Below are positions 7,942-63,700 of a stretch of 64,000 bases of DNA, piece after piece. The notes below the pieces were generated by a model. That model ran no database searches. It was not told the origin of the DNA and saw only the letters and a program-made list of their open reading frames with translations. The position numbers were made by a program, and so were the translations under genes. Position 1 is the stretch's first letter; every line of letters starts with the position of its first letter. The stretch is from an uncultured Sphingomonadaceae bacterium (GTDB lineage Bacteria; Pseudomonadota; Alphaproteobacteria; Sphingomonadales; Sphingomonadaceae), in assembly GCA_947493955.1 (NCBI GenBank), contig CANLSQ010000002.1, positions 310,001-374,000 on the forward strand, given 5' to 3'.

Positions 7942-7959
7942 GCTTATCTTTTGATAAGC
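7942..7959. other. perfect hairpin GCTTATC-TTTT-GATAAGC
   Basis: Seven-base-pair perfect inverted repeat with a 4-nt loop in the 211-bp gap between the small minus-strand gene and the membrane-protein gene at 8050. It has no long T-run beyond the loop, so it is a weak terminator at best. It could equally be an operator for the plus-strand gene. Confidence 0.3.
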
Positions 7960-8049
7960 AGACTGGTCTGGCCAATCATCGCTGACCATGGCATGGCACG
8001 CTTGCAAGGCGCTGTGATCGTGAAGCGCTACCATTGTTAGGGGACCAAT

Positions 8050-8244: not shown

Positions 8245-8314
8245 AGCCGATTAGCCGGTAACAGAACCGAATAGCGCGCTTGTCATCAGACGCGGCGCTT
8301 CCTATTGTTGAGAC

Positions 8315-18953: not shown

Positions 18954-18963
18954 AGCCATTTCC

Positions 18964-47517: not shown

Positions 47518-47552
47518 TTGACAGACTCAATATATCGGCACTATACGTGCCA
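47518..47552 (+). promoter_or_regulatory. TonB-receptor promoter with operator O1
   Basis: TTGACA (47518-47523), 18 bp, TATACG (47542-47547) is a candidate promoter. Over its -10 lies O1, CGGCACTATACGTGCCA (47536-47552), GGCAC-N5-GTGCC, a member of the TGGCA-N7-TGCCA family described under findings. Repressor binding here would block polymerase. Confidence 0.7.
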
Positions 47553-47560
47553 ACTAGATA

Positions 47561-47577
47561 TGGCACTTTAGATGCCA
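47561..47577 (+). promoter_or_regulatory. operator O2 of TonB receptor gene
   Basis: TGGCACTTTAGATGCCA (47561-47577) with extended arms TATGGCA/TGCCATA (47559-47579). Its centre is 25 bp from that of O1 and it lies between the promoter and the ribosome site, so two repressor dimers could bind side by side. Confidence 0.7.
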
Positions 47578-47603
47578 TAAGATGATTTTTGGGAGAAGAA
47601 GCC

Positions 47604-50120
47604 ATGAAATTTGCAAAGAAACTGGTGATTGCCGGACTATGCAGCAGTGCAATGACGATGCCTGCAGTCGCACAGGAACGGGATAGTGCGGAAACAGTTG
47701 ACGAAAATGTCATTATCGTGACCGCCACCCGCCGCGCGCAGGATGTGCAGGATATTCCAATTGCCGTGACCGCGGTGGGTTCGGCGCAGCTCGATGCTCA
47801 GGGAGTTGTCGACGTCACCGACCTGGGCAGTGTCGCGCCCAGCTTCAATGTTTCGCAAGCGCAGGCTGCTTCCAATGGTGTTGTGCTGCGCATTCGCGGT
47901 GTTGGCACCACGTCCAACAATATCGGGTTCGAAAGTGCAGTCGGTGTTTTCATTGACGGGGCCTATCAGTCGCGGCCCGGAGTGGCGCTGTCGGAATTTG
48001 TCGATGTGGAGCGTGTCGAAGTGCTTCGCGGACCGCAAGGAACGCTGTTCGGCCGAAACACTTCGGCAGGCGCGCTCAATGTCATCAATCGGCGGCCTGA
48101 TCTGAGTGAATTTGGCGGTTTTGCAAATGCGGGATATGGCAATTTCAACCAGTTTAGCCTGCAAGGCGCGGTCAATCTGCCGGTGGTTGCAGATTCGCTG
48201 GCACTGCGCGTCACGGGGGCCTATCGCGAGCGCGACGGCTTTATCACCGTTCTCGACGGCAATGGCGCAGAGATCGGTGAAACAAACGATGTCGACCGAT
48301 ATCTGGTTCGCGCTCAGTTGGGCTTCGCAACTGATGGCGGCATCGAAGGCCGCCTTATTGCCGACTATTCCAAAGATACAAGTTCCTGCTGCGGAGCAGT
48401 CGAACTGTTGCAGTCTCCGATTGAAACCGCCGGCCTGTTTAATCTGGTCGGGCTGGGGCCACGTGGCGGAATGTCATCGCCAGTTGTGGCAACTGACCCA
48501 TCCGATCAATCAACCGCACAGCAGGCGCTCGACAATCGCATTGTGACATTGAGCCGCGCACCGACTGCCGATGTCGAAAATTGGGGCATTACCGGGGAAA
48601 TCGAGGTCCCCATCGGCAACAATGTCGATCTGATCTACATCGGATCCTATCGTGAATATGAAGCGAATGAGTCCTTTGACTCCGACTTTTCCGCACTCGA
48701 TGTTTTCGAAGTCGTCAATAACACGACCACGATCGACACGATGACGCACGAGCTGCGATTGCAGGGCGATGCGTTCGACGGTCGGCTGGACTGGTTGGTA
48801 GGTGCATTTTACTCGGACGAAGACATTCTCAGCAGCCCGATACTGGCACTCGGACAGGACTATGGTGAACTCGTCGGCGCAACTTTATTTGGCCCGACGG
48901 GCGGCATGTTCGGCGCCAATCCGCTCACGGTACTGTCTGGTGGTTTCGACCCATCGACGACGATCACGAACAATCTGTTCGGCCAGTCCAGCGAGAGTTT
49001 TTCGGTCTTCACCCACAATGTGTTTGCTGTGACCGACCGGCTCGATCTGACCCTTGGTCTCAGATACTCGGATGAAACGAAGGACGGGTTCTTTGCTCAG
49101 CCATCGAATACCAATCCGGTTTGTTCGTCGCTCGCAGCCCGGATTGCTGCTGGCGCGATCCCGCCAAACCTGGCTGGACCGGTCATCGGCCTGGGCTGCT
49201 TTCCGCTCACGGCCCCCGCAGATTTGCCGCAATCGGTGGCCCTGCCGTTGCCGCAGAGCTTCAACTCCAGCTTCAAGGATGACGAGCTGATCTATACGGC
49301 GAAGCTCGGCTATGAATTTGATAATGTAAACCTCTATGCCAGTTACACGCATGGCTACAAGTCTGGTGGCATCAACCTTGATGCAACGGCTGGCGTAAAC
49401 GCATCCAACCCGACCTTTGGCTCCGAAGAAGTGGACGCCTATGAGATCGGCTTGAAGGGCCGGTTCCTCGATGGCGGCATCACTGCGAACCTCGCTGTCT
49501 TCCATCAGGACTTCAGCGATTTTCAGGTTCTGGAGTTCACCGGAACGCAGTTTCAGAGCTTCAACGTGCCCAAGGTGAAGAGTACGGGTATTGAACTGGA
49601 GGCGGTCCTGCGGCCTACCGACGGGCTCACGATCAACACATCATTGGCCTATACCGATGCGCGTTATCCCAATGACTGTGCTCCGGATACGGCGGCGCTG
49701 TCGATCCGCAATCTGTGCGGGTTCAGCCTGACCAATGCGCCCGATATCGTCGCCATTGTGGGAGCGAATTACGATATACCGCTCACCGGTTCGGTCGACC
49801 TGTTCCTCAATGGTCAGATCCGCACAGTCAGCGACAGTCGGACGTCCACACAAGGCCGCTCGGTGCCCACCGCCGCAGCGGCTCTGGGAACGACACCGCT
49901 ACTGCCGTTCGATGTTCAGGACGGTTACACGACAATCAATCTGCGTATCGGTATCAAGCAGGCCGACAGCGGCTGGGCGATCGAGGCTTGGGCGACCAAT
50001 CTCACGAACGAGATTGCGCGCGGCGTTACCTTCAACACTGCGCTCCGCAGCGGATCGCGGTCCGCTTTCATCTCTCAGGAGCCGCGCATGTATGGCGTCA
50101 CTCTTCGAGGCGAGTTCTAG
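47604..50120 (+). CDS. TonB-dependent outer-membrane receptor
   Basis: An 838-residue protein from ATG 47604 (MKFAKKLVIAGL), 8 nt after GGAG. A start 15 bases upstream (TTG) is not needed. A signal peptide ends at AVAQ, then comes a TonB-box-like VIIVTATRR, a plug domain (VEVLRGPQGTLFGRNTSAGALNVI at about 130) and a C-terminal barrel ending in an aromatic residue (RGEF). This is the TBDT type common in sphingomonads for uptake of large or amphipathic substrates. It begins the accessory cluster and is controlled by O1/O2. Confidence 0.95.
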   Translation: MKFAKKLVIAGLCSSAMTMPAVAQERDSAETVDENVIIVTATRRAQDVQDIPIAVTAVGSAQLDAQGVVDVTDLGSVAPSFNVSQAQAASNGVVLRIRGVGTTSNNIGFESAVGVFIDGAYQSRPGVALSEFVDVERVEVLRGPQGTLFGRNTSAGALNVINRRPDLSEFGGFANAGYGNFNQFSLQGAVNLPVVADSLALRVTGAYRERDGFITVLDGNGAEIGETNDVDRYLVRAQLGFATDGGIEGRLIADYSKDTSSCCGAVELLQSPIETAGLFNLVGLGPRGGMSSPVVATDPSDQSTAQQALDNRIVTLSRAPTADVENWGITGEIEVPIGNNVDLIYIGSYREYEANESFDSDFSALDVFEVVNNTTTIDTMTHELRLQGDAFDGRLDWLVGAFYSDEDILSSPILALGQDYGELVGATLFGPTGGMFGANPLTVLSGGFDPSTTITNNLFGQSSESFSVFTHNVFAVTDRLDLTLGLRYSDETKDGFFAQPSNTNPVCSSLAARIAAGAIPPNLAGPVIGLGCFPLTAPADLPQSVALPLPQSFNSSFKDDELIYTAKLGYEFDNVNLYASYTHGYKSGGINLDATAGVNASNPTFGSEEVDAYEIGLKGRFLDGGITANLAVFHQDFSDFQVLEFTGTQFQSFNVPKVKSTGIELEAVLRPTDGLTINTSLAYTDARYPNDCAPDTAALSIRNLCGFSLTNAPDIVAIVGANYDIPLTGSVDLFLNGQIRTVSDSRTSTQGRSVPTAAAALGTTPLLPFDVQDGYTTINLRIGIKQADSGWAIEAWATNLTNEIARGVTFNTALRSGSRSAFISQEPRMYGVTLRGEF

Positions 50121-50151
50121 GTTTTGATCCTTCTCTCCCGTTGGATCACAA

Positions 50152-50189
50152 GAGGCAGGCAGCTTGGGGAGTTGCCTGCCTCATTTTTT
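50152..50189 (+). terminator. rho-independent terminator after TonB receptor gene
   Basis: GAGGCAGGCA (50152-50161), 11-nt loop, TGCCTGCCTC (50173-50182), then ATTTTTT. A perfect 10-bp stem and six-T run make this a strong terminator that isolates the receptor gene from the sulfatase operon. Confidence 0.9.
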
Positions 50190-50313
50190 GGAGGAGAAGG
50201 CTTCCATTGTCTTTGTTCGCCTTACACCGCGGCCGCAAATTCCCTCTTATGGGATGTCAGGGTGGCAAGTTATGATGTAGGAACGGTTTTACTAGGAGGT
50301 TAGAGAGAAGGTT

Positions 50314-51993
50314 ATGAAAAACTGGAAGAAAATAGTCCTGGTCTTTCTGATCACGGTGATTGGCCTTGGCGTGATCGGATATCTCAATCCCACTTCGCTG
50401 ATGCTGGCCTATATCAAGCACTTCACACATCCCGAAGTTGCGGACAATCGTCCGGTTGAATGGGCGCAGGGTCCCAAAACCGCGTCTGCTCCAGCATCAG
50501 AACGTCCACCCAACATCATCTTCATTCTCGCCGATGACCTCGGCATTAATGACATTTCCACCTTTGGTGGCGGGGTTGCAGGTGGCCGCGTCCCTACCCC
50601 CAATATTGACAAGCTCGCTGCAGACGGTGCGATATTCAGCCAGGCCTATGCGGGGAATGCCACCTGTGCACCCTCGCGCGCCATGCTGATGACCGGTCGT
50701 TACCCGACCCGCACCGGCTTTGAGTTTACGCCAACCCCGCCGGGCATGGGCGCAACGATCAGCGCGATCAGTAATCAGATGAATAGCGGCCTGCCGCCTG
50801 TTGAATATAACGAGGCAGCGGACAATGCGGTCGCCTATGAGGACATGGGACTGCCCGGTAGCGAGATCACCATCGCCGAGTTGCTCCAGGAAAAGCGTTA
50901 CCACACGGCACATATTGGCAAATGGCATCTGGGCAGAAATGCTGAAACCAACCCACTCGCTCAGGGCTTTGACGAAAGCCTGTTGATGGCCAGCGGTCTT
51001 TTTTTGGAAGAAGATGATCCCGAAGGTGTTGCGGCCAAGCTTGATTTCGACCCTATCGACCAGTTTCTCTGGGCGGGCATGCAATATGCCGCATCCTTTC
51101 ATAATGACGGTTTTGACGATGCCGACCGCTTTAGACCGGGCGGTTACCTGACCGACTGGTGGACGGACGAATCTCTCAAAGTCATCGAAGCGAACAAGAA
51201 CCGGCCGTTCTTCCTCTATTTGGCCCATTGGGGTGTACACACACCGCTGCAAGCCACAAAGGCCGATTATGAAGCGGTTGGGGATATCAAACCGCATCGG
51301 TTGCGTGTCTACGCCGCCATGGTTCGGTCACTCGATCGCAGCGTTGGCCGGATCATGGAGAAGCTGGAGGAAGAGGGCCTGGCGGACAATACCATCATCG
51401 TCTTTTCGAGCGATAATGGCGGTGCGGGCTATATTGGACTGCCGGAGGTCAATGCGCCCTATCGCGGCTGGAAAATCACGCTTTTTGAAGGCGGCATCCG
51501 GGCACCGATGTTCATCAAATGGCCTGCGCGAATAAAGCCGGGCACACGCGTCGATACGCCCGTGGCACATATTGACGTGATGCCGACACTGGCAGCGGCC
51601 GCCGGTGCGTCACTTCCCGAAGGCGTTGTCATCGACGGCCAAAACATGCTTCCTGCAGCCATGGAGACGGGAACAATCTCTCGGCCAAATGACGCGATAT
51701 TCTGGCAAAGCGGCTATTATCAGGTGGTACGTGCTGGCGACTGGAAATTGCAGGTGAACAGCAAGCAGAAGAAATTCTGGCTCTTCAATCTGGCCGATGA
51801 CCCGACCGAACAGACAAATCTGGCGGCGAAAAACCCCGGTAAGCTCGATGAACTCAAACAATTGCTTGCCGAACACCACAAAGGCCGAAAGCCGGCGCTT
51901 TATGCCTATAGTGTCGAAAGCCCGATTGCGATCGACAAAACCCGGGCGAACAAGATATCATCCGGCGACGAGTATGTTTACTGGCCGAATTAG
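50314..51993 (+). CDS. FGE-dependent sulfatase, membrane-anchored
   Basis: A 559-residue alkaline-phosphatase-fold hydrolase. Residues 7-26 are a membrane anchor or uncleaved signal, so the enzyme faces the periplasm. Metal ligands sit in NIIFILADDLG (Asp74, Asp75). The nucleophile motif is CAPSRAMLMTGRYPTRTG with Cys118, converted to formylglycine in active sulfatases. Further metal ligands include VFSSDNGG. It should remove sulfate from an ester. The family is closer to arylsulfatase A/choline-sulfatase-like enzymes than to phosphonate hydrolases. It starts an operon with DUF1330, DsbA-like and possibly tetR-FGE genes. A half operator TGGCA at 50263 is the only hint of the common motif. Confidence 0.93.
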   Translation: MKNWKKIVLVFLITVIGLGVIGYLNPTSLMLAYIKHFTHPEVADNRPVEWAQGPKTASAPASERPPNIIFILADDLGINDISTFGGGVAGGRVPTPNIDKLAADGAIFSQAYAGNATCAPSRAMLMTGRYPTRTGFEFTPTPPGMGATISAISNQMNSGLPPVEYNEAADNAVAYEDMGLPGSEITIAELLQEKRYHTAHIGKWHLGRNAETNPLAQGFDESLLMASGLFLEEDDPEGVAAKLDFDPIDQFLWAGMQYAASFHNDGFDDADRFRPGGYLTDWWTDESLKVIEANKNRPFFLYLAHWGVHTPLQATKADYEAVGDIKPHRLRVYAAMVRSLDRSVGRIMEKLEEEGLADNTIIVFSSDNGGAGYIGLPEVNAPYRGWKITLFEGGIRAPMFIKWPARIKPGTRVDTPVAHIDVMPTLAAAAGASLPEGVVIDGQNMLPAAMETGTISRPNDAIFWQSGYYQVVRAGDWKLQVNSKQKKFWLFNLADDPTEQTNLAAKNPGKLDELKQLLAEHHKGRKPALYAYSVESPIAIDKTRANKISSGDEYVYWPN

Positions 51994-52002
51994 GAAGACA
52001 CC

Positions 52003-52641
52003 ATGTCGAAAGTGAAAATCATCTGGGTTTCCCTGCTGGCCGTTCTCTATATGATTTTTTGGATCTGGTATGGGGGCAATGGTGAACCTATCTCTCAGGC
52101 CGAAGGCGAGAAAATGCTGGAACGGGTGGAGCAATTGCATGGCGTCAAACTTGAAGACACACCTCCGGGCAGCATGAGCCGAAACTTGAGGGCGATGCTC
52201 CCACTTGACGATGGCAAGGAATTCTATGCGGTTAATCTGGAAACCCGCGCCAAGGGAGCACAGGCCAGGGAGGCCGAAACGCGTTATGGTGAGATTGTTA
52301 TTCCCCTATTGCTCGAGCGCGGCGGCCATCCAGTGTTTATCAGCGAGCGCGCAGGGCTGATGCTGGGCACATATGGCGAGCGGATCGATCGGGTGGCCGT
52401 GGTGCGATACCGTTCCTTGCGGGACCTGCTCGACATGATCGGCGACGAACGGATGGTTGAGGGGAACAAATTCAAGTCCGCATCGTTGGCTCACACGGAG
52501 GTGTTCATCACCCGGCCCACCATCTCCTTTGCCCAGGTTCGATTGATGCTAGGACTGTTCCTGCTGATCCTCGGTTTTGTTGGGTGGAAACTGATCGGCG
52601 GGCGACAGGGCAAAAGGCACGAAGCCGATGCTGGAGCCTGA
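52003..52641 (+). CDS. membrane-anchored DUF1330-like protein
   Basis: A 212-residue protein with a first membrane helix (IIWVSLLAVLYMIFWIWYG) and a second near the C-terminus (VRLMLGLFLLILGFVGW), and a 150-residue domain between them that should lie in the periplasm. The segment VVRYRSLRDLLDMIGDERM and the following Ala-rich helix with THTEVF-like strand resemble DUF1330/EthD ferredoxin-fold proteins, as does the soluble gene product at 56633. I recognise no catalytic residue. It lies 9 bp after the sulfatase gene, and overlaps the DsbA-like gene by 14 bp. Confidence 0.65.
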   Translation: MSKVKIIWVSLLAVLYMIFWIWYGGNGEPISQAEGEKMLERVEQLHGVKLEDTPPGSMSRNLRAMLPLDDGKEFYAVNLETRAKGAQAREAETRYGEIVIPLLLERGGHPVFISERAGLMLGTYGERIDRVAVVRYRSLRDLLDMIGDERMVEGNKFKSASLAHTEVFITRPTISFAQVRLMLGLFLLILGFVGWKLIGGRQGKRHEADAGA

Positions 52642-53971
52642 GAACAATCCCAATCCGCCCATGATGGTCGACCCTCCGGGCTGGCTGCGGTACCTGCTCC
52701 GGCGGCAGTTTGATAAAGTCACTGATCTTCGCAATGTCAACAAACGCCGCGAGAAAGCAGAACGCCGGCGGCAGCGGGGCAATGAACCGCATGTGGTGGA
52801 ATATTTTCACCAGCTGGATGACCCCTATTCGCATTTGACCGCGCAGGTGCTCGCGACCTTTGCTGAACGCTATGATATTGTGATCAAGCCGCATCTGATC
52901 CGGGCATCGGGCGGCAAGAACCAGCCGGAATTGGAAAAACTGGCACAATGGGCGCGGCGCGATGCCGAGCTGATTGCACCCCATTACGGACTGACGTTCC
53001 CGAAAGATGCACCGGTCCAGCCGAGTGTCGGCGATCAAACCACAAGTGCCCTGTCATTGTCCGCCCAATCAGATGAAAAGTTCATCAGCTCTCTGTTCGA
53101 CGAAAGCACGAAGCTTTGGTCTGTAGGTGCCGGGGGTGAATCTGGCGGTTCAACAGCGGGGCCGATTTTGGAAAAGGGCAGTGCGCGGCTCGCCGAACTC
53201 GGTCATTATTCAGGTGCAACATTCCACTATGCAGGAGAATGGTATTGGGGTGTGGACCGGTTATTTCATCTCGAACAGCGGTTGCGCGATCTCGGCGCTT
53301 GCAAGAAACCCGACCTACCTTTCATCTGCCCGCGTCCGGACATTGATGTCAGCGGCGTGGATGCCAGCGGATTGACCCTTGATTTCTACCCCTCACTCAA
53401 TTCGCCTTACACGTCGATCATCTATGACCGCACCATCGCTCTCAAAGACGAATGTGACATCCGGTTCAATCACAAACCCGTATTGCCGATGATCATGCGC
53501 GGGGTTCCGGCCACCCGCGCCAAGGGCATGTACATTATCTTCGATACCAAACGTGAAGGCGAGTTTCTGGGCGTGCCTTTTGGCCCGATGATAACGCCGA
53601 TTGGCGAGCCGACGCGGCAGGCCTATTCGCTGCTCCCCTGGGCCGTGCAGCAGGGCAAGGATGAGGCGCTTATGTCTTCCCTGCTCGCGCATGCCTTTGC
53701 AAAGGGGATTGGGCTTCACACCAGAAAAGGAATGAAACGGGCCGTTGAAGCTGCCGGACTGGACTGGCAGGAGGCGCAGCAATATCTGGGCAGTAATGAC
53801 TGGAAGCCGATGGTTGAACGGCATCAGGGTGAAATGGTTGAAGGTCTCGGCTTGTGGGGTGTCCCGAGCTATCGCCTGTCGGGGCTGGACGGTGAACCGG
53901 ATTTGGCCGTCTGGGGGCAGGACCGGTTGTGGCTGATCGCAGCCGAGATCAGGCGCCGTGCAAAGGGGTAG
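52628..53971 (+). CDS. tandem DsbA-fold (HCCA-isomerase-like) protein
   Basis: A 447-residue protein in which two thioredoxin/DsbA-fold units follow each other: the first from about residue 58 (HVVEYFHQLDDPYSHLTAQV), the second from about 255 (LDFYPSLNSPYTSIIYDR) to the end, with GLWGVPSYRL and WGQDRLWLIAAEI as in kappa-class GST/2-hydroxychromene-2-carboxylate isomerases. No CxxC motif is present, so it is not a thiol oxidase. Such enzymes use glutathione to isomerise or transfer. It is longer than the usual single-domain 200-residue member. It overlaps the upstream gene. Confidence 0.8.
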   Translation: MLEPENNPNPPMMVDPPGWLRYLLRRQFDKVTDLRNVNKRREKAERRRQRGNEPHVVEYFHQLDDPYSHLTAQVLATFAERYDIVIKPHLIRASGGKNQPELEKLAQWARRDAELIAPHYGLTFPKDAPVQPSVGDQTTSALSLSAQSDEKFISSLFDESTKLWSVGAGGESGGSTAGPILEKGSARLAELGHYSGATFHYAGEWYWGVDRLFHLEQRLRDLGACKKPDLPFICPRPDIDVSGVDASGLTLDFYPSLNSPYTSIIYDRTIALKDECDIRFNHKPVLPMIMRGVPATRAKGMYIIFDTKREGEFLGVPFGPMITPIGEPTRQAYSLLPWAVQQGKDEALMSSLLAHAFAKGIGLHTRKGMKRAVEAAGLDWQEAQQYLGSNDWKPMVERHQGEMVEGLGLWGVPSYRLSGLDGEPDLAVWGQDRLWLIAAEIRRRAKG

Positions 53972-53974
53972 TGT

Positions 53975-53995
53975 TTTGGTGCGTTAAATGCCAAA
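53975..53995. promoter_or_regulatory. operator O3 upstream of tetR
   Basis: TTTGG (53975-53979) and CCAAA (53991-53995) flank the 17-bp core TGGTGCGTTAAATGCCA (53977-53993), a variant of the TGGCA-N7-TGCCA motif with a weaker left half. It sits about 30 bp before the TetR ATG, suggesting autoregulation. Confidence 0.55.
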
Positions 53996-54023
53996 GCTTG
54001 AAACAGACTATGCGGAATGAGTA

Positions 54024-54647
54024 ATGGCAAAAAAAAGTGCAGCGATAAGAAAACTGACTCAGGCCAACAAGCCTGACCCCGATGGCCGGCGTCAACGCAG
54101 TCAGGCCAGCCGCGCCAAAATCATTGCCGCCTTCATGGAGCTAATGGAAGCTGGTGATCCCAGTCCCAGTGCGGCACGTGTCGCGAAACGCGCTGGCGTT
54201 GGATTGCGCTCTGTGTTCCGCCACTTTGACGACATGGATTCCATTTATGTGGAGGTTGATCGGCTGCTCGGTGAACAATGGCGGCCCGTGCTGAACAAGC
54301 CCTATAAATCCACCAATTGGCGGGATCAGCTGAACGAGTTGATCAAGCGCCGGGCAGAGGTGAATGAAGATACCGCCCCCTACAGGCTGACCACCATGTT
54401 CGCACGGTTTCATTCTGCTCAGCTTATGAAAAATTATGAGCGGCTGATGAAAATTGAAGCCGATGCGCTGAACGACATTTTGCCGAAATCCGTGCAGAAG
54501 GACAAAAGACGAAGCAGGGCGATTCTGCTGGCGACAAGCTTCGATAGCTGGCGCCTATTCCGGCACGATCAGGGGTTGAGCAACAAGCGGACGATTGAGA
54601 CGATGGCGCAGATTGTAAAAGATATTGTTGCTCATATTGACGAATAG
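54024..54647 (+). CDS. TetR/AcrR-family regulator of the cluster
   Basis: A 207-residue regulator with a basic N-terminus and HTH at about 36-66 (SAARVAKRAGVGLRSVFRHFDDMDSIYVEV). The C-terminal domain is divergent. It is the only DNA-binding gene inside the catabolic cluster, and O3 lies immediately before it. I infer that it represses the O1-O6 sites until a substrate or breakdown product is present. It is followed 3 bp later by the FGE gene. Confidence 0.88.
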   Translation: MAKKSAAIRKLTQANKPDPDGRRQRSQASRAKIIAAFMELMEAGDPSPSAARVAKRAGVGLRSVFRHFDDMDSIYVEVDRLLGEQWRPVLNKPYKSTNWRDQLNELIKRRAEVNEDTAPYRLTTMFARFHSAQLMKNYERLMKIEADALNDILPKSVQKDKRRSRAILLATSFDSWRLFRHDQGLSNKRTIETMAQIVKDIVAHIDE

Positions 54648-54650
54648 ATT

Positions 54651-55565
54651 GTGCGTATCAGGATAGTCGGTCTTTTGTTTTTGTTGCTGTCCGCTTGCGG
54701 GCAGGATGGGACAAATCCGGAAGCGCAGATTTGCACTGACCTCACAGAAAATGAAATGGTCTGGATTCCCGCAGGCAGTTTTACCATGGGCGAAAATCCC
54801 CGCTATCGCGAAGAAGGACCACCCAGAACCATCCATGTGGATGGATTCTGGATAGATGCGCATGAAGTAACCAACGCGCAATTCGCTGCCTTTGTGGAAG
54901 CCACTGGATATAAAACGCTGGCCGAACGGGAACCACCGAAGATGGAAGGTGCACCAGCAGAAATGCAGCGGCCCGGCTCGGCGGTTTTTAACGTGCCGAG
55001 TGACGATGATCCGCGTTGGTGGCACTGGGTTCCGGGTGCCGAGTGGCGGCATCCTTCTGGACCGACTGAAAAAATAGATGGCCAAGAGAAAGTGCCCGTC
55101 GTCCAGATCGCTTATGACGATGCGCTGGCCTATGCCAAATGGGCTGGCAAGGCGCTGCCCAGCGAGGAGCAGTGGGAATATGCGGCTCGCGGCGGTGAAG
55201 CTACGCGCCCAGAACCCAAAGATGCTGCCGGCGCGCCGCAGGCGAACTATTATCAGGGTGTTTTTCCTGCCAGGGATCTGGGTGAGGATGGTTTCACAAC
55301 GCGCGCGCCAGTGGGGTGTTTCCAACCCAATGGTTTCGGGCTCTATGATATGCTTGGCAATGTCTGGGAATGGACAACCAATGATGGATCGCGCGCCGAT
55401 GCGAGTGAGGCTGTGAAGGTGATCAAAGGCGGGTCCTATCTCTGTGCGGCCAACTATTGTGCCCGCTATCGCCCCGCGGCGCGGCAGTTTCAGGAGCGCG
55501 GACTGGGGACAAACCATATCGGGTTTCGGCTGGTCGAAAACGACAAGCCTGCGCCCACAGACTGA
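54651..55565 (+). CDS. formylglycine-generating enzyme (SUMF1/FGE), predicted lipoprotein
   Basis: A 304-residue protein with GTG start at 54651. The N-terminus MRIRIVGLLFLLLSACG is a lipoprotein signal (lipobox LSAC). The FGE-sulfatase domain runs from MVWIPAGSFTMG (about residue 32) to the end. The catalytic pair is present: Cys265 and Cys270 in KGGSYLCAANYCARYR, spaced exactly as in human SUMF1. It would oxidise the CAPSR Cys of the neighbouring sulfatase. Bacterial FGEs are usually cytosolic. The lipoprotein signal suggests a periplasmic, membrane-tethered maturation step. GAACAGTGG-like ribosome sites are weak, and it may be coupled to tetR. Confidence 0.85.
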   Translation: MRIRIVGLLFLLLSACGQDGTNPEAQICTDLTENEMVWIPAGSFTMGENPRYREEGPPRTIHVDGFWIDAHEVTNAQFAAFVEATGYKTLAEREPPKMEGAPAEMQRPGSAVFNVPSDDDPRWWHWVPGAEWRHPSGPTEKIDGQEKVPVVQIAYDDALAYAKWAGKALPSEEQWEYAARGGEATRPEPKDAAGAPQANYYQGVFPARDLGEDGFTTRAPVGCFQPNGFGLYDMLGNVWEWTTNDGSRADASEAVKVIKGGSYLCAANYCARYRPAARQFQERGLGTNHIGFRLVENDKPAPTD

Positions 55566-55571
55566 TTAAAG

Positions 55572-55603
55572 TTGACTGCATATAAGTGGCATATATAGTG
55601 TCA
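55572..55603 (+). promoter_or_regulatory. promoter with operator O4 before dehalogenase gene
   Basis: TTGACT (55572-55577), 16 bp, TATAGT (55594-55599). Over the -10 lies O4, TGGCATATATAGTGTCA (55587-55603). The flank GTGTCAATATAT recurs at O6. Confidence 0.7.
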
Positions 55604-55629
55604 ATATATTTACGATAGGAAACCTCCCA

Positions 55630-56622
55630 ATGAAAATCTTGCGAACCCCCGATGCCCGTTTTGAAAATCTGTCCGGCTATGATTTTGCACCGCATTATTC
55701 GGAAGTGACCGCTGCCAATGGCGCGGCGCTTCGCCTGCATTATCTCGACGAAGGCCCGCGCGATGGAGAGATTATCCTTTGCATGCACGGCCAGCCGTCC
55801 TGGTCCTATCTGTACCGAAAGATGATACCGATTTTGGTCGATGCCGGTTTTCGCGTCATCGCCCCCGACCTGATCGGTTTTGGCAAGTCGGATAAACCCT
55901 CACATATCGATGACTATACCTACCAGAACCATGTGGACTGGATGAACCAGTGGTTTCTGGCGATGGATATCTCAGATGTTACTCTGGTCTGTCAGGATTG
56001 GGGTGGGCTGATTGGCCTGCGCGTCGTGGCAGACAATGTGGACCGTTTTGCCCGGCTTGTTGTCGCCAATACCGGTCTGCCATCGTCCCGGACAGTTACG
56101 CCTGAAATGTCCGAGATGTTAGGTAAACTTTATCCCACCATCCCCGTTCCCAATGCGGCAATGGTTCAGGAGCAATTTGCCAGTGGTTCGCCAACAGCCT
56201 TTCTATACTGGGTAAAATATGCCGCTGAAAGCTCTGAATTTACAGTGCGTGAGGTATTCAACCTTCTTTCCGGTATCACGAACCAGAATATATTAGACGG
56301 CTATGAAGCGCCGCATCCTGATGAGAACCATAGCGCCGGTGCTCGTAAGTTTCCATCTTGTGTTCCCCTGTTGCCGCATCACCAGGCAGACCGCGATGCC
56401 AACGACAAGGCATGGGAAGTTCTGGAGAAATTTGAAAAGCCGGTCCTGACGGCATTTAGCGACGGTGATCCGGTGACAAAAGGTGGTGAAACCCAGTTTC
56501 AGGAGCGTATTCCCGGCGCGAAAGGCGTTGAGCATGTCACGATCAAGGGCGGCGGGCATTTTTTGCAGGAGGATCAGCCTGAACAGCTGTCCGAAACCAT
56601 TATCAACTTTATGAAATCATAG
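55630..56622 (+). CDS. haloalkane dehalogenase homologue (DhlA-type alpha/beta hydrolase)
   Basis: A 330-residue alpha/beta hydrolase similar throughout to DhlA (MKILRTPDARFENL, HYLDEGPRDG, HGQPSWSYLYRKMIP, APDLIGFGKSDKP). The nucleophile is Asp123 in CQDWGG with Trp124, a halide contact in dehalogenases. The acid is probably Asp280 (SDGDPVT), and the base His310 (GGGHFLQED). A Trp in FLYWVKY may be the second halide Trp. The oxyanion loop has Gln where DhlA has Glu. It should displace halide from a halogenated alkane, although hydrolysis of another bond cannot be excluded. Confidence 0.85.
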   Translation: MKILRTPDARFENLSGYDFAPHYSEVTAANGAALRLHYLDEGPRDGEIILCMHGQPSWSYLYRKMIPILVDAGFRVIAPDLIGFGKSDKPSHIDDYTYQNHVDWMNQWFLAMDISDVTLVCQDWGGLIGLRVVADNVDRFARLVVANTGLPSSRTVTPEMSEMLGKLYPTIPVPNAAMVQEQFASGSPTAFLYWVKYAAESSEFTVREVFNLLSGITNQNILDGYEAPHPDENHSAGARKFPSCVPLLPHHQADRDANDKAWEVLEKFEKPVLTAFSDGDPVTKGGETQFQERIPGAKGVEHVTIKGGGHFLQEDQPEQLSETIINFMKS

Positions 56623-56632
56623 GAGCACACCG

Positions 56633-57052
56633 ATGAAAGTTGTCAACCAGGTCAATCCTTCGCCCGAACGCATGCAGGAATTTTTTGGGGGCAAGGAAGA
56701 TGGTGCGTTCGTCATGGTGAACTTGCTCAAATTCAAGGAGAAGGCGGAATATCCCGACGGTCGTGAAACCGGGCTCAGCGGGGCCGAGGCTTATGCCCTA
56801 TATGGTGCTGCAGTGGTGGAACGCCTTGCGGCCGTCGGCGCAACGCCGGGCTATAGCGGACCGGTCACCGGCCTGATGCTGGGTGAAGTCGAGGAAAACT
56901 GGGATATGATCGCGCTGGCCGAATATCCTTCGCTGGAAGCAATGAAGACCATGATCATGTCGCCCGAATATCAGGCCATTTCAGTGCACCGGACGGCTGG
57001 TCTGCAAGGCCAGCTCAACATCAAGACCAAGCCGGGTGCCTTGGGCAACTAG
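56633..57052 (+). CDS. DUF1330 family protein
   Basis: A 139-residue soluble protein. AFVMVNLLKFKEKAEYPDG, the VERLAAVGATPGYSG strand-turn and IALAEYPSLEAMKTMIMSPEYQAI...HRTAGLQ match DUF1330/EthD-like ferredoxin folds. These often assist or catalyse small steps in catabolic clusters, but have no general known reaction. It is 10 bp after the dehalogenase gene, in the same operon, and its stop overlaps the convergent membrane-protein gene. Confidence 0.85.
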   Translation: MKVVNQVNPSPERMQEFFGGKEDGAFVMVNLLKFKEKAEYPDGRETGLSGAEAYALYGAAVVERLAAVGATPGYSGPVTGLMLGEVEENWDMIALAEYPSLEAMKTMIMSPEYQAISVHRTAGLQGQLNIKTKPGALGN

Positions 57053-57507
57053 TCCTTTGCCTTTCGTGGCGGGATAAGCGACAGGACAAGCATCACAAGG
57101 GCGATGATCGGAATCACCATATTGCCGACCTGGCCCGGCGCGGTGCCGATCGTTTCCACTGGTTTGAACTGGCCGATCAATCCCCGCCCGATCCATTCCA
57201 TAAGCACGATCAGCCACATGAGTGGCACCATGGATTTGTAACGGACAGCCGCCAGCAGCATCAGCAGACCCAGCAACAATTGCATCCATCCCCATTGGGC
57301 AAAGAGCGCGATAATGGTTGCAGCTGCTCCGTCCGAATAGCTGTCGAGCGGGATGGTGGCGATGCTCTGCGCCCCGCCATCAACCGCAAAAATATGGTGC
57401 TGGCTGCGCCACAGGGTCACCGCGGTCATCAGATAGAAGATCCACAGCGCTATCTTCTGCCCGGGAAAGACGTTGTCAAACTGTGCCGGGAACAGACGTT
57501 CGATCAT
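57049..57507 (-). CDS. unknown four-helix membrane protein
   Basis: A 152-residue protein with about four hydrophobic helices (LWIFYLMTAVTLWRS, WGWMQLLLGLLMLLAAV, MVPLMWLIVLMEWIG, MVIPIIALVMLVLSLI), of uncertain family. It starts inside the stop codon of the GST-family gene (ATGA) and is the last gene of the minus-strand trio 58506, 57504 and 57049. Possibly a transport or membrane-protection function. Confidence 0.65.
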   Translation of the reverse strand: MIERLFPAQFDNVFPGQKIALWIFYLMTAVTLWRSQHHIFAVDGGAQSIATIPLDSYSDGAAATIIALFAQWGWMQLLLGLLMLLAAVRYKSMVPLMWLIVLMEWIGRGLIGQFKPVETIGTAPGQVGNMVIPIIALVMLVLSLIPPRKAKD

Positions 57508-58496
57508 TGCAGAAACTCCAGGCAGTTATTTCCCTCAAGGATCGGATCAACCTTTGCCCGCGCATCGGCATCCAGCGCCGCATAACGGCTGCGCAAATCG
57601 GCCAGACATTTGACCTGATATTTGAACGTGCCCTGCGAATAGGGCTTGCCCATCGCTTCGATGCTGAAGGTTTCTTCACCTGCCTCCATGGCAGCTGCAT
57701 TGGAGAGCAGAAATGGGGCATAGACCTCCCCAACCTGGACTAGCAACTTGCCGACCACTGGTTTGAACGGCGAGTCAGGAGCATCCCATTCGCCCTCAAT
57801 TCCCGACATATCATCAACATGTAGCAACCATCGGAAAGTGTAAGGATAGTCTTTGCGCATCATCTCTTGCGCGGTCGGATCCACGCCCAGCTGGGACAGC
57901 TGACCATAGATCCCCAGCTCCGCCAGTGATGGCCGCGCCCCGAACAGATAGTGTTCGTTGACCACATGATCTTCCAGCGCTTGCAAAACCGCACGTGTTG
58001 AGGCCTCGATTAGTGGAAAATTTTCCTGTGTGCAGCCGACAATCGCCATGCGGCCGACCTGTCTGCCCCGGAAATGCTCGGCCATCCCCTGGCTTTGCTC
58101 AAGCCCGCCACCTTTCATCGCATCGAAGGACAGCCAGCGGCTCATCTGGATCTGGTCCACTTCCTCCAGCCAGCGATAGCCAAACATGGCCTTGGTCAGC
58201 CATTCATCGGCAAAATCCTCAAGCAGATGCGCAATAAAGGCCTGGGCGGGATCGGGCGGAACAACCCGGCGTTCCTTATGCCGTTCTTCCAGGTCATAGA
58301 GAACCGGCGTTGAGTCATTATGAAAGCTGCCATCGGGATATTCGATCACCGGAATGACCGGAGCTTTGACTTTTTCCGCCGCCAATTGTTGTACATGTCC
58401 GCCATGTTGCCAGACCTGGGTGATCCGCCGATAGCGCATCAATGCGCGCATCTTCATCGAATAGGGTGAGCCCAGCGCTCCGTGGATAGTGTACAT
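57504..58496 (-). CDS. glutathione S-transferase-family protein
   Basis: A 330-residue protein. The N-terminal 80 residues are thioredoxin-like (MYTIHGALGSPYSMKMRALMRYRRI, PVIPVIEYPDG with the cis-Pro, and NDSTPVLYDLEER with Ser for glutathione binding). The C-terminal part is a longer all-helical domain than usual. It may conjugate or dehalogenate, or serve as a glutathione lyase. It belongs to the minus-strand operon with the metallo-hydrolase gene 9 bp upstream. Confidence 0.85.
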   Translation of the reverse strand: MYTIHGALGSPYSMKMRALMRYRRITQVWQHGGHVQQLAAEKVKAPVIPVIEYPDGSFHNDSTPVLYDLEERHKERRVVPPDPAQAFIAHLLEDFADEWLTKAMFGYRWLEEVDQIQMSRWLSFDAMKGGGLEQSQGMAEHFRGRQVGRMAIVGCTQENFPLIEASTRAVLQALEDHVVNEHYLFGARPSLAELGIYGQLSQLGVDPTAQEMMRKDYPYTFRWLLHVDDMSGIEGEWDAPDSPFKPVVGKLLVQVGEVYAPFLLSNAAAMEAGEETFSIEAMGKPYSQGTFKYQVKCLADLRSRYAALDADARAKVDPILEGNNCLEFLQ

Positions 58497-58505
58497 ATGC
58501 TTATC

Positions 58506-59576
58506 CTATTTTAACTGTGTCTGTTCGATATTGGTCTGGCCTACCGGCAAGCTGAACAGCATGCCGTCTTCACCAACCGTGATTTTCCCATCAAATTTAT
58601 CCGGTGCATCGGCCAGAAAGGCGGGGTAGAAATAGCTGCTGGGAATAGGCGGCACCAGATGGCTGAGCACCAGCTGTTTTGCGCCAGCCGCCTGTGCCGA
58701 TTCCGCTGCTTCGGTAGGCGTGGCGTGATAATCCATTATGTCCTTGGTGATAATCGCCACATTGTCCATCCCGCGTTTTTCCAGACCCGCAGTCATCTGC
58801 TTGACCATATGTGAGGCCAGTGCTTCATGGACAAGCAGCTCTGCACCCTCGCAAACCCGCTCAAGATTGGCGGATTTGGCTGTATCACCGCTGATGCAGA
58901 CCGAACGCCCTTTATAGTCAAACCGATATCCTACGGAGGGAATAACGGGATCATGGTCGACCTTGAAGGCAGTGATTGTGAGACCGTCTTTTTTCAGGAT
59001 TACGATCATTTCGCCGATCATTTCAAAGGGCTTCGCTTCTGCGCCGCCACCGGTTGACGGCGCAATTTTCTCGCCGTGATGGGTCGTGCGATATATATTG
59101 TCGGTCGCATAGGCAGCGTTAAAGCCATCGACAATCGCCTCCACCCCTGTCGGTCCATGCACTGGAAGCGGCGCCTTGCTAGCGCCCTGTGTCCAGTGGA
59201 AAAGCATCAGCGGCCCCATGCCATCAACATGATCGGAGTGGAAATGGGTCAACAACACGCCATCAATCTCGGGAGCCGGTATCGCCATCAGATTGAGATT
59301 ACGGGCGCCACCTTCTCCAATATCGACGACAAATACCTGCTCGCCTGCGATGACAACATTGCACGGCCCCGCACGATCCGGGTTGGGAAGCGGTGAACCA
59401 GTTCCGCACAGCCCCACATGCAGACCATCGTCCAGTCCGGCCAGATTATCAGTGCCGATACGTGCATCCAGGCCGCGCTCAAACAGGCTGGAACCGATCT
59501 GTTTCTGGAACAGGAAAACAGACGCAACCGCGACGATCACCAAAACACCAACAACCAGACAAATCTTTCTAAACAT
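58506..59576 (-). CDS. MBL-fold metallo-hydrolase, AtsA-like
   Basis: A 356-residue protein with a membrane anchor or signal (LVVGVLVIVAVASVFLF) followed by a metallo-beta-lactamase fold. GLCGTGSPLPNPDRAGPCNVV and THFHSDHVDGMG (dinuclear zinc site), then VCISGDTAKS and VLSHLVPP. The opening GTGSP-x-P-x-P-x-RAGP pattern is shared with the RNase Z-like arylsulfatase AtsA group, so it may be a second, cofactor-free sulfatase. This is based on resemblance from memory. It faces the MDR gene across the O5/O6 region. Confidence 0.8.
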   Translation of the reverse strand: MFRKICLVVGVLVIVAVASVFLFQKQIGSSLFERGLDARIGTDNLAGLDDGLHVGLCGTGSPLPNPDRAGPCNVVIAGEQVFVVDIGEGGARNLNLMAIPAPEIDGVLLTHFHSDHVDGMGPLMLFHWTQGASKAPLPVHGPTGVEAIVDGFNAAYATDNIYRTTHHGEKIAPSTGGGAEAKPFEMIGEMIVILKKDGLTITAFKVDHDPVIPSVGYRFDYKGRSVCISGDTAKSANLERVCEGAELLVHEALASHMVKQMTAGLEKRGMDNVAIITKDIMDYHATPTEAAESAQAAGAKQLVLSHLVPPIPSSYFYPAFLADAPDKFDGKITVGEDGMLFSLPVGQTNIEQTQLK

Positions 59577-59622
59577 GGAATCTCCCCGACTATGGTCTGC
59601 AACAGCAGGTAAGGCGGTAATA

Positions 59623-59639
59623 TGGCACTATAAATGCCA
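59623..59639. promoter_or_regulatory. operator O5 before metallo-hydrolase operon
   Basis: TGGCACTATAAATGCCA, a perfect TGGCA-N7-TGCCA inverted repeat (extended ATGGCA/TGCCAT). Read on the minus strand it contains TATAGT (59632-59627), a -10 for the metallo-hydrolase operon. A weak -35 ATGGCA lies 16 bp away (59654-59649). The minus-strand sequence matches O4 at 15 of 17 positions. Confidence 0.7.
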
Positions 59640-59647
59640 TTAAGCAA

Positions 59648-59691
59648 TTGCCATATGCGAAAGTTCGACTATTATAGCATCAATGGTGTCA
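59648..59691 (+). promoter_or_regulatory. promoter and operator O6 before MDR-dehalogenase-DUF2855 operon
   Basis: TTGCCA (59648-59653), 16 bp, TATTAT (59670-59675) is the plus-strand promoter. Its -35 overlaps the -35 of the divergent promoter. O6, TAGCATCAATGGTGTCA (59675-59691), starts at the end of the -10 and shares GTGTCAATATAT with O4. Confidence 0.6.
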
Positions 59692-59720
59692 ATATATGAT
59701 TGGATCACGGACGTAAGGGA

Positions 59721-60728
59721 ATGGCAGAACAAGAACCAGCGCAAATCCGGATGTCAGACTATCCCGGCACTAGGAATGCACGCGATATATGGCGGGTTAC
59801 CCATGATTCCCTTCGCCCTGTTGAAGACGGAGAAGTGCGGGTTCGACTCGACTATATCTCCATTGATCCAGGCATGCGTGGCTGGATCACCAACAAGCGC
59901 AGCTATATGCCACCGGTAAAACCGGGTGGGGTTATGCGTGCTTTTGGTGTGGGTGAAATATTGGAATCCCGGGCGACTGGACTTGCTGTCGGTGATCAGG
60001 TCACCGGATTTACCGGTGTACAGACGCATGGCGTTTTCAAACAGGAGAACCTGCGCAAGATCGAACTGCCCGGTGTTCCGTCCTATATGTTTCTCTCTGG
60101 TTTCGGCATGACTGGTTATACTGGCTATTTCGGCATGACAGATATCGGACAGCCCCAAGAGGGTGAAACGGTCATCGTGTCCGCAGCATCCGGTGCTGTG
60201 GGCAGTATTGCGGCACAAGCCGCCAAGTTGGCTGGCCCACGCGTTATCGGTATTGCCGGTGGCCCTGACAAATGTGGCTATCTGACCGATGAACTGGGTC
60301 TGGATGCTGCAATTGACTATAAAAACGATGATATCGACGCGGCGCTGAGCGCAAATTGCCCGGATGGCATTGATCTCTATTTCGACAATGTTGGCGGTGA
60401 CATTTTGAGCGCTGTATTGAACCAGATGAATTATCAGGGCCGAATTGTCGTGTGCGGCGGCATTTCCCAATATGACGATTTCGCGAGCGCCGCCGGCCCG
60501 GCCAATTTCATGACTGTTGTCACCCACAGCCTCACCATGCGCGGTTTTACAATGCGAGATTACATGCACCGCGTGCCCGAAGCGCTGGAGTGGCTCGTGC
60601 CGGCGTGGAAAGAGGGCCGGATCAAGTTTCGAGAACACATAATAGAAGGAATAGAAAACTTCCCCGATGCTTTCGAGATGATCTTTGAGGGCAGAAACCA
60701 CGGCAAGTTGCTGCTCAAGGTCAGCTGA
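59721..60728 (+). CDS. NADP-dependent medium-chain reductase (PTGR/LTB4DH-like)
   Basis: A 335-residue zinc-free MDR enzyme. YISIDPGMRGWITNKRSYMPPV at about 45, then the cofactor loop VIVSAASGAVGSIAAQAAKL and DLYFDNVGGDIL with AIDYKND. Such enzymes reduce the double bond of alpha,beta-unsaturated ketones or enones. ATG 59721 was used. A TTG at 59700 is in frame. It overlaps the next gene by 1 nt (TGATG). Confidence 0.9.
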   Translation: MAEQEPAQIRMSDYPGTRNARDIWRVTHDSLRPVEDGEVRVRLDYISIDPGMRGWITNKRSYMPPVKPGGVMRAFGVGEILESRATGLAVGDQVTGFTGVQTHGVFKQENLRKIELPGVPSYMFLSGFGMTGYTGYFGMTDIGQPQEGETVIVSAASGAVGSIAAQAAKLAGPRVIGIAGGPDKCGYLTDELGLDAAIDYKNDDIDAALSANCPDGIDLYFDNVGGDILSAVLNQMNYQGRIVVCGGISQYDDFASAAGPANFMTVVTHSLTMRGFTMRDYMHRVPEALEWLVPAWKEGRIKFREHIIEGIENFPDAFEMIFEGRNHGKLLLKVS

Positions 60729-61672
60729 TGGAAATTTTGCGTACGCCTGATGAGTGCTTTGATGGTCTTGCTGACTATCCATTTTCGCCTAGCTATGTCG
60801 ATGTGTCGGATACCGAAGGCGGGAGCCTACGCCTACACTATGTGGATGAGGGGCCTCGTGACGGCCAGCCTGTTGCGATGATCCATGGCAATCCGACATG
60901 GTCCTATATGTGGCGCAAGCTGATCCCTGTTTTGGCCCAAAATGGCTTTCGGGCCATCGCCATCGATCTGATCGGTATGGGCCGTTCGGACAAACCGACC
61001 AGGATGAGCGACTACACAATCGCTCGTCACGAAGCATGGGTGAAGGAAGCCTTGTTTGAAAAGCTGAACCTGAAGAATGCCCATTTCATCCTGCACGACT
61101 GGGGCGGGATTATCGGCCTGCGTGCGATTGCAGACAATCAGGATCGCGTTGCCAGTGTCATTATGTCGAACACGGGCTTTCCTGTGCTGGATCCCGACGA
61201 ACCGATTGCGACAATGACGCGTCCGGGCGCAAAGATGCTGCGCCAATTCCAGCTCTACATCCGCTTCAAGAAGAATTGGCAGCATTGGAAAACGCTTGGC
61301 AGAATTGTCCTAACCAACATGCCAAAGGCCGATATTGCCGGCTTTGCAGCGCCCTACCCTGACAAGAAATATCTAACTGGCAACCGCCAGTTCACACAGA
61401 TGCTGCCGACCCGGAACGACAACCCGATGCTGATCGAAAATTGGCACGCGTTGCAAAAACTCAAAAGCTTTGAAAAGCCGTTCCAAAATCTGTTCTCAGA
61501 CAAGGACCAGATCGCTCCAAAAGGCTTTAACAGCGTTCGACCCATCATCCCCGGAACACGCGATTACGAACCGGTCATCCTCAAAGGTGGATCACATTTC
61601 CTGCTGGAGGACGTGCCGGAAGAATATGCCGCCGAAGTCCTGAAATTCCTCAAATCGGTGGAGACCAACTGA
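60728..61672 (+). CDS. second haloalkane dehalogenase-like alpha/beta hydrolase
   Basis: A 314-residue paralogue of the enzyme at 55630. It shares MEILRTPDECFDGLADYPFSP and HYVDEGPRDGQ. The oxyanion loop is HGNPTWSYMWRKLIP (Asn55). The nucleophile is Asp124 in LHDWGGIIG, and the base His lies in KGGSHFLLED with acid in SDKDQIAP. The Asn loop and HDWGG differ from the first paralogue, so substrate range or reaction may differ. In operon with the MDR and DUF2855 genes. Confidence 0.83.
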   Translation: MEILRTPDECFDGLADYPFSPSYVDVSDTEGGSLRLHYVDEGPRDGQPVAMIHGNPTWSYMWRKLIPVLAQNGFRAIAIDLIGMGRSDKPTRMSDYTIARHEAWVKEALFEKLNLKNAHFILHDWGGIIGLRAIADNQDRVASVIMSNTGFPVLDPDEPIATMTRPGAKMLRQFQLYIRFKKNWQHWKTLGRIVLTNMPKADIAGFAAPYPDKKYLTGNRQFTQMLPTRNDNPMLIENWHALQKLKSFEKPFQNLFSDKDQIAPKGFNSVRPIIPGTRDYEPVILKGGSHFLLEDVPEEYAAEVLKFLKSVETN

Positions 61673-61673: not shown

Positions 61674-62759
61674 ATGACCAACGTTACTGAACTATGGGTA
61701 AAACGCGACAAACTGCGCGAGACAAGGGTAGTCGAAAGCGACCAAAAACCACTTGAAGACGGGCAGATTCGCGTTGCCATCGACAAGATGGGGCTGACGG
61801 CGAATAATGTCAGCTATGCCGTTTCTGGAGATGCGATTGGTTACTGGAAATATTTCCCGGCGGAAGGTGAATGGGGCAAAGTCCCCGCTTGGGCAATGGC
61901 GGATGTGGTCGAATCCCGCAGCGACGCCATATCTGAGGGCGAACGACTATATGGCTTCTTCCCGATGGCTAGCGAAGTGATCCTGCAGCCCGGTCGCACA
62001 TCAGATGATTTCTTCATGGACGAAGCACCGCACCGCGCCGAGCTTCCCGCGCTCTACAATCAATATCGCCGAACCCGGGGCGAACCGGAGTTCCTGCATT
62101 CGCTTGAAAACGAGCGCTGCCTCCTCTTCCCACTCTTCATCACATCTTTCGTGCTCTACGATTACCTGATCGACAACGCATTTTTCGGCGCAAAGCAGGT
62201 CATCATCGGTTCGGTCTCCTCAAAGACTGGCTTTGGCCTCGCGCACCTGCTCAAGAACGATCTTGAGGTGAGCCAAAAAGTCGTCGGACTGACCTCGGTT
62301 GGTAATGTGAAATTCGTCGAAAGCCTGGGCTGCTGCGACCAGATTGTGACCTATGGCGATGAGGACGAGATTGATGCGAGCCTTCCATCTGCGTGGGTGG
62401 ATATGTCAGGTGATGGCCCGCTCACCAGCAAATTACATCGACTATTGGGCGACAATATGGTGGAAAGCTGCATCGTCGGTGCAACCCACTGGGAAGCGGA
62501 GCGCAAGCGAGAGAAGAACTTACCCGGCGTTTCCCCGACGTTCTTCTTTGCCCCCGGGCACATTGCCAAACGCGACGCCGAATGGGGAGCAGGCGAAATC
62601 TGGCGACGCGGTTCTGAGGCCGGTGCCGAAATTGCCAAATCGGTGTCGGATCAGATAACCGTCGAGAGGATATCTGGCGCGAACGAAGTCGCTGCGATCT
62701 GGAGAGAAATGCTTGAAAACAATGTTTCACCAAACCGCGGTATTATGATTGCGATCTAA
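61674..62759 (+). CDS. DUF2855 family (MDR-like) protein
   Basis: A 361-residue protein of the DUF2855 family. It looks like a medium-chain dehydrogenase relative: substrate-domain opening (KMGLTANNVSYAVSGDAIGYW, with FPAEGEWGKVPAWAMADVVES), then a Rossmann-like VIIGSVSSKTGFGLAHLL. The standard G-x-G-x-x-G is replaced by SSKTGFG, so cofactor use is uncertain. Function unknown. It lies 1 nt after the dehalogenase-like gene. Confidence 0.85.
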   Translation: MTNVTELWVKRDKLRETRVVESDQKPLEDGQIRVAIDKMGLTANNVSYAVSGDAIGYWKYFPAEGEWGKVPAWAMADVVESRSDAISEGERLYGFFPMASEVILQPGRTSDDFFMDEAPHRAELPALYNQYRRTRGEPEFLHSLENERCLLFPLFITSFVLYDYLIDNAFFGAKQVIIGSVSSKTGFGLAHLLKNDLEVSQKVVGLTSVGNVKFVESLGCCDQIVTYGDEDEIDASLPSAWVDMSGDGPLTSKLHRLLGDNMVESCIVGATHWEAERKREKNLPGVSPTFFFAPGHIAKRDAEWGAGEIWRRGSEAGAEIAKSVSDQITVERISGANEVAAIWREMLENNVSPNRGIMIAI

Positions 62760-62784: not shown

Positions 62785-63087
62785 ATGCGTCTTTCAATTC
62801 TAGTGTCAATTTCTACCCTGGCGATGGCAGCTCCGGCTCTCGCCCTAAACGCCGCCGCAGACAACAAAGCCGCCCAGGAAAATTTCAGTCAGGCCGATGG
62901 TAATGAGGACGGCCAGCTGACAAAGTCGGAGTTTCGGAAATTCATCAATGCCAATGCGGCCGACGATATTGGCCGGGCGTCGATGATCAAACGCTTCGGC
63001 GCCTATGATACAGCTTTTGGAAGAGTAGACGCAAACAAGGATGGCCTTGTAACTCCAAAAGAACTCGCCGCTTCACAAGGGAAATAA
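62785..63087 (+). CDS. secreted EF-hand protein
   Basis: A 100-residue protein with a signal peptide (VSISTLAMAAPALA) and two EF-hand loops, ADGNEDGQLTKSEF and DANKDGLVTPKEL, each with the Asp-x-Asp/Asn-x-Asp/Gly-Glu pattern. Probably a periplasmic calcium-binding protein. No enzyme domain. AGGAGAGT precedes the ATG. Confidence 0.8.
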   Translation: MRLSILVSISTLAMAAPALALNAAADNKAAQENFSQADGNEDGQLTKSEFRKFINANAADDIGRASMIKRFGAYDTAFGRVDANKDGLVTPKELAASQGK

Positions 63088-63091
63088 TGTG

Positions 63092-63700
63092 ATGACACTC
63101 AAACTGCACTTTGCTCCCGACAGCCGGATCAGCTGGCTGCTTGAAGAGCTGGAACTGCCCTATGAGCTTAACGCCATGGCTTTTCATCCCAGGGATCTGA
63201 AATCGGATGAGCATCGCGGTCGGCATCCGCTAGGCCGTATTCCGGTGCTAGAGGATGGCGATGTGTCGATTTACGAGTCTGGCGCGATTGTGGAATATAT
63301 CCTCGAGCGTCATAAAAACGGTGGTTTGAAACCGGCGGTCGATGATCCGAATTTCCCCTATTACCTGCAATGGTTTCACTATTGCGAAGGCATGGTGATG
63401 CCGCCGGTTAACACTATTGTTGTGCACACCCTGCTGCTCCCACCCGATCGTCAAGACGCAACGGTGCGCGATCAGGCCAAGCGCTTGCTGACAAAGGCTT
63501 GGGCACCCGTAGATGAAGCTCTCCAAGGAAAGGATTATCTGATCGGTGATTTTTCGGGAGCCGATATCATGCTCGGTCATGCTGCTTTTATGAGCAACCG
63601 CCTGGGCTGCGTGACTGATGATATGCCGAACCTGAAGGCCTATGTGCAGCGGATTACTGAAAGACCGGCCTTTGCCAAGGCGATCGCTATGGGAACCTAG
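63092..63700 (+). CDS. glutathione S-transferase
   Basis: A 202-residue GST: thioredoxin-like N-domain (LKLHFAPDSRISWLLEELELPYE, cis-Pro in RIPVLEDG, and YESGAIVEYILE with the gamma-Glu-binding Glu-Ser), then the helical C-domain (LIGDFSGADIML). It uses glutathione, for conjugation or thiolytic dehalogenation. Starts are GTG 63089 or ATG 63092. The second is used here. It closes the catabolic cluster. Confidence 0.9.
   Translation: MTLKLHFAPDSRISWLLEELELPYELNAMAFHPRDLKSDEHRGRHPLGRIPVLEDGDVSIYESGAIVEYILERHKNGGLKPAVDDPNFPYYLQWFHYCEGMVMPPVNTIVVHTLLLPPDRQDATVRDQAKRLLTKAWAPVDEALQGKDYLIGDFSGADIMLGHAAFMSNRLGCVTDDMPNLKAYVQRITERPAFAKAIAMGT

Follow-up and report, generated by a model that had tools for sequence, protein, structure and literature searches.

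A TetR-family regulator encoded in a sulfatase/dehalogenase cluster very probably acts as a local repressor, with seven palindromic sites, O1 to O7, as its operators. Six of the sites lie in the window, the whole 64-kb stretch of DNA that was analysed, and their inverted repeats were refined to a 23-bp palindrome, WWWTGRCAY-N5-RTGYCAWWW. The original prediction, a single regulon over at least four transcription units, is supported, and the regulon would reach beyond the window, to O7. For a proposal built on sequence alone, it is unusually well supported. Sites and genes of the cluster are as follows (putative operators are given without strand).

47533-47555: operator O1, TATCGGCACTATACGTGCCAACT, upstream of the TonB receptor gene, 25 bp from O2
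47558-47580: operator O2, ATATGGCACTTTAGATGCCATAA, a perfect match to the 23-bp pattern
47601-50120, plus strand: TonB-dependent receptor (Pfam Plug and barrel), putative target of O1/O2
50152-50182, plus strand: terminator-like hairpin after the receptor gene, 14-bp stem and T-run, a consensus match only
50314-51993, plus strand: sulfatase (Pfam PF00884), CAPSR formylglycine motif
52003-52641, plus strand: hypothetical protein, 212 aa, no Pfam match, homologues in relatives' clusters
52628-53971, plus strand: DSBA-like thioredoxin-domain protein, 447 aa (Pfam PF01323)
53974-53996: operator O3, the weakest site, upstream of tetR, score 13.3 (164-site matrix), kept in genome G014
54024-54647, plus strand: TetR-family regulator (predicted TetR fold, co-occurrence with the sites), proposed binder of all operators
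54651-55565, plus strand: formylglycine-generating enzyme (PF03781), lipoprotein-type signal with lipobox LSAC, CAANYC active-site motif
55584-55606: operator O4, on a -10-like TATAGT
55630-56622, plus strand: haloalkane dehalogenase 1 (NCBIfam NF002043, 441 bits, cutoff 265), putative O4 target
56633-57052, plus strand: DUF1330 protein (PF07045)
57049-57507, minus strand: hypothetical protein, 152 aa, no Pfam match
57504-58496, minus strand: GST-like protein, 330 aa (Pfam GST_N_3)
58506-59576, minus strand: metallo-beta-lactamase-fold hydrolase (PF12706), putative O5 target
59620-59642: operator O5, on a -10-like TATAGT of the minus strand
59672-59694: operator O6, beside a -10-like TATTAT of the plus strand, 52 bp from O5
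59715-60728, plus strand: MDR-type reductase (PF16884, PF00107), putative O6 target
60728-61672, plus strand: haloalkane dehalogenase 2 (NCBIfam NF002043, 315 bits, cutoff 265)
61674-62759, plus strand: DUF2855 protein (PF11017)
62785-63087, plus strand: EF-hand protein
63089-63700, plus strand: glutathione S-transferase

All six repeats were real, and their 17-bp cores lay where they had been placed (O1 47536-47552, O2 47561-47577, O3 53977-53993, O4 55587-55603, O5 59623-59639, and O6 59675-59691), upstream of the TonB receptor, tetR, the first dehalogenase, and the divergent metallo-hydrolase/MDR pair. The cores of O1 to O6 differed from TGGCA-N7-TGCCA at 1, 0, 2, 1, 0, and 2 positions, respectively. 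The claimed identity of O5, read on the minus strand, with O4 (15 of 17 positions) was reproduced, as was the GTGTCAATATAT said to be common to O4 and O6. With up to two mismatches, the loose 17-bp consensus was found 62 times in the 64-kb window (45.6 expected); such counts barely exceed chance, are alone no proof of a regulon, and would fit palindromes that look alike by accident in intergenic DNA rich in A and T. All six sites were AT-rich in the centre and on the flanks, and as a set with these features they were far beyond chance. In a leave-one-out analysis of the window, a symmetric 23-bp matrix was trained on five sites at a time; the left-out sites O1 to O6 ranked 6, 2, 8, 6, 2, and 6, the five training sites always being counted in the ranks. 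The left-out site was the top non-training position in every case except O3, which was third, with two other positions ahead of it. A matrix from 164 distinct sites, drawn from the genome and its relatives, gave scores of at least 10 in the 64 kb to O1-O6 only; the leave-one-out analysis is the cleaner test, because the large matrix contains the window's own sites.

The 3.4-Mb genome was searched with a pattern and not with a matrix. When no more than one mismatch was allowed, the 23-bp pattern WWWTGRCAYNNNNNRTGYCAWWW occurred five times, as O2, O4, O5, O6, and O7. All five sites were within 20 kb around tetR, and near-perfect sites were thus not scattered over the genome. O7 (G000:C2:377555-377577; window coordinate 67555) lies 3.6 kb beyond the window end, and is followed on one strand by a DJ-1/PfpI-type gene and a second sulfatase gene, and on the opposite strand by genes for an AMP-binding enzyme and a GST-like protein. 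At two mismatches, 45 sites were found, versus 23 for the reversed pattern, and the matches at this level were mostly background; O1 has two mismatches, and O3 was absent from the two-mismatch matches.

Three further positions were set aside. The core TGGCACTTATTATGTCA, or its reverse complement, was present at G000:C2:601510-601526, G014:C2:536626, G024:C2:428929, and G031:C1:2205554, in genus members both with and without tetR, with operator-unlike flanks; the core-only match at C2:601510 (score 2.6) was discarded as an operator on these grounds. Two positions scored near O1. C1:1276416, inside a phosphoglycerate-kinase-like gene, was taken as chance because it is coding, as was, less surely, C1:1421140, which falls within a 253-aa ORF and some 75 bp upstream of a transporter-like one.

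The operators were conserved in relatives with the same genes. Same-genus TetR orthologues (55-85% identity) were mostly found in the same cluster, with sites at corresponding places. In aligned promoter regions, the O1-O2 spacing of 25 bp and the O5-O6 spacing of 50-52 bp were kept, and operators were retained in diverged promoters while spacers drifted; -10-like boxes were present, and a -35-like TTGACT upstream of O4 was invariant in seven genomes. When named genomes were scanned, TetR homologues (37-66% identity) turned up at 80 loci, in Sphingomonadales, Hyphomonadaceae, Caulobacteraceae, Maricaulaceae, and Rhodobiaceae. Sites scoring at least 16 were present at 75 of them (154 sites in total), versus a mean of 2.3 and a maximum of 17 sites for permuted-column matrices; many of the loci are close relatives, and the counts are not independent. 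On a tree of 96 regulators, 87 had sites, with three label changes. Four homologue loci of sufficient length were without sites, three of them from one subclade, and weaker homologues (33-36% identity), in partly similar clusters, also had none. One such cluster, in locus L064 (genome G051, 4429-10435), contains dehalogenase, DSBA, sulfatase, metallo-hydrolase, and TetR (35% identity) genes but lacks the sites altogether, and its regulator may therefore recognise another operator. On a 19-kb contig of Sphingomonadales bacterium EhC05 (L055, G007:C30), two tetR paralogues occupy the ends (526-1146 and 18717-19337), together with partly duplicated cluster genes, and sites lie in between.

The sites also tracked the TetR orthologue across genomes. 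Across the family (89 genomes), perfect 23-bp sites were found in 12 of the 13 genomes that have the regulator, and in 1 of the 76 that lack it (Fisher p = 7e-13, too small given shared ancestry). The regulator was scored as present when a TetR homologue reached at least about 38% identity, a threshold chosen post hoc, by which G051, G062, and G070 (homologues of 33-36%, no sites) were counted as lacking it. Within the genus, the counts were 7 of 8 versus 1 of 24. The direction of the co-occurrence is clear despite kinship and the post hoc threshold. In another family, genome G117 has a TetR homologue at 29% identity with several sites nearby. Conservation and co-occurrence already refute the notion that the palindromes are alike by chance, to which we give practically no weight; the leave-one-out ranks, the permuted matrices, the genomic confinement, and the kept promoters also speak against it.

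Because tetR is co-inherited with the sulfatase clusters, its linkage to the sites is not in itself proof of binding, and the sites might be bound by a regulator encoded outside the cluster. We consider this very unlikely: a site lay directly before tetR, at most 320 bp upstream, in 45 of 79 loci; sites persisted despite differing neighbour genes and were nearly absent from genomes without the regulator; and no second regulator family was prominent among the recurring neighbours.

The cluster-encoded TetR protein is the proposed binder. Its TetR_N match (PF00440, residues 35-78, E = 5.8e-5) reached 23.2 bits, just under the gathering score of 24. The structure model (pLDDT 88.5) has the all-helical TetR fold, with a predicted helix-turn-helix and ligand-binding domain, and matched TetR-family structures with Z up to 14.8 over 175-180 residues (rmsd about 3). 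A sequence search of the PDB revealed no close characterised TetR; the best match to the TetR profile was AefR (PDB 3cdl, E = 4e-8), limited to the DNA-binding part, residues 28-107. QacR and EthR, whose structures have been solved, are repressors acting from palindromic operators. Their folds resemble the one predicted here (Z 14-15 over about 175-180 residues), but they have just 10-16% identity to the regulator, and no operator, ligand, or target is known in common. A few TetR proteins are activators, and the best NCBIfam match of the regulator, weak and below cutoff, was the activator FasR. That the sites are true operators from which the protein activates, or has mixed effects, is nevertheless improbable, given that they lie on or beside -10-like boxes, their centres a median of 29 bp upstream of naively called start codons.

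Because the sites cover or abut -10-like boxes, repression, by steric hindrance, appears to be the likeliest mode of control. Overlap with -10 boxes had been claimed for O1, O4, and O5; it held for O4 and O5, while the box at O1 was poorer and was not reported by the promoter scan. O6 also abuts such a box (TATTAT). The overlaps are supportive only, because the region is not enriched in promoter-like hexamers (12 versus 10.8 expected). The repeats could instead be RNA hairpins, terminators or attenuators, and O2 did appear terminator-like in a pattern scan. Among 140 oriented sites, columns 6/18 held 27 A-C mismatches versus 28 G-T, paired states being only slightly favoured (p = 0.025), and columns 9/15 held C-A 29 times (p = 0.86). 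Arms free of RNA-type covariation fit a DNA palindrome read by a dimer, and promoter-like boxes are overlapped by the sites; the hairpin explanation was rejected after this test as having almost no likelihood.

The genes next to the sites are of recurring kinds. Site-target pairs grouped into sulfatases (48), TetR proteins (40, including a few GST-like proteins pulled in by single-linkage clustering), dehalogenases (24), metallo-hydrolases (14), GST-like proteins (14), and TonB receptors (10). Both dehalogenases passed the curated NF002043 cutoff, and the QDWGG nucleophile motif of dehalogenase 1 was aligned. The sulfatase gene in the window lacks a separate operator and lies behind a terminator-like hairpin, which suggests partial read-through; in three same-genus relatives (L053, L054, and L056), the sulfatase has its own operator. 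A formylglycine-generating-enzyme cluster was present in 51 loci, with the active-site motif in 43 of 58 members, some members being antisense artefacts of simple ORF calling. In the enzyme from the window, both active-site cysteines align with the human-type enzyme, which is also its nearest PDB relative. Its N-terminus carries a lipoprotein-type signal, LLFLLLSAC, as do most intact homologues (for example L053:8046-8972, L099:10444-11511, and L148:10591-11508), which suggests that the sulfatases may be matured in the periplasm.

We propose that a TetR dimer, or a pair of dimers, would occupy each 23-bp palindrome and repress the TonB receptor/sulfatase, dehalogenase-1, metallo-hydrolase/GST, and MDR/dehalogenase-2 units and those flanking O7. 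Its own gene and that of the formylglycine-generating enzyme would be repressed weakly, autoregulation through O3 probably being weak. TetR would be released by a small molecule, at a guess a sulfated, perhaps halogenated, substrate or intermediate, with joint induction of uptake, sulfatases and their maturing enzyme, dehalogenases, GSTs, and reductase.

The nearest solved relatives of the sulfatase by sequence are carrageenan sulfatases, a kinship that does not fix the substrate. Chlorosulfolipids occur in marine waters, where their detection has tracked phytoplankton blooms (PMC13413282). They would need both sulfatase and dehalogenase activity, and their link to the cluster is only a suggestion. 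An inducible pathway dedicated to algal lipids of this kind, both sulfated and halogenated, with TonB uptake, desulfation, dehalogenation, and reduction under one TetR sensor, is a speculative and unlikely extension of the regulon.

A widespread alphaproteobacterial sulfatase cluster gains a candidate regulator, together with a precise operator and a list of targets, and regulon membership would place the two dehalogenases, the TonB receptor, and the formylglycine-generating enzyme in a single process. The operator offers an experimental handle on the inducer, and thereby on the substrate class. The pairing of regulator and operator recurs in dozens of alphaproteobacteria; no description of a TetR-sulfatase-dehalogenase regulon was found in the open-access papers searched, and an account elsewhere is possible. 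TetR regulons are known as a kind, and those of FadP, LiuQ, PsrA, RutR, and FabR have been predicted comparatively in Proteobacteria (PMC5343134). Their targets are fatty acid, branched-chain amino acid, or pyrimidine genes, and the word sulfatase is nowhere in that paper, but in their TetR regulators, palindromic motifs of 15-25 bp, catabolic targets, and the comparative method used, they are like the regulon proposed here.
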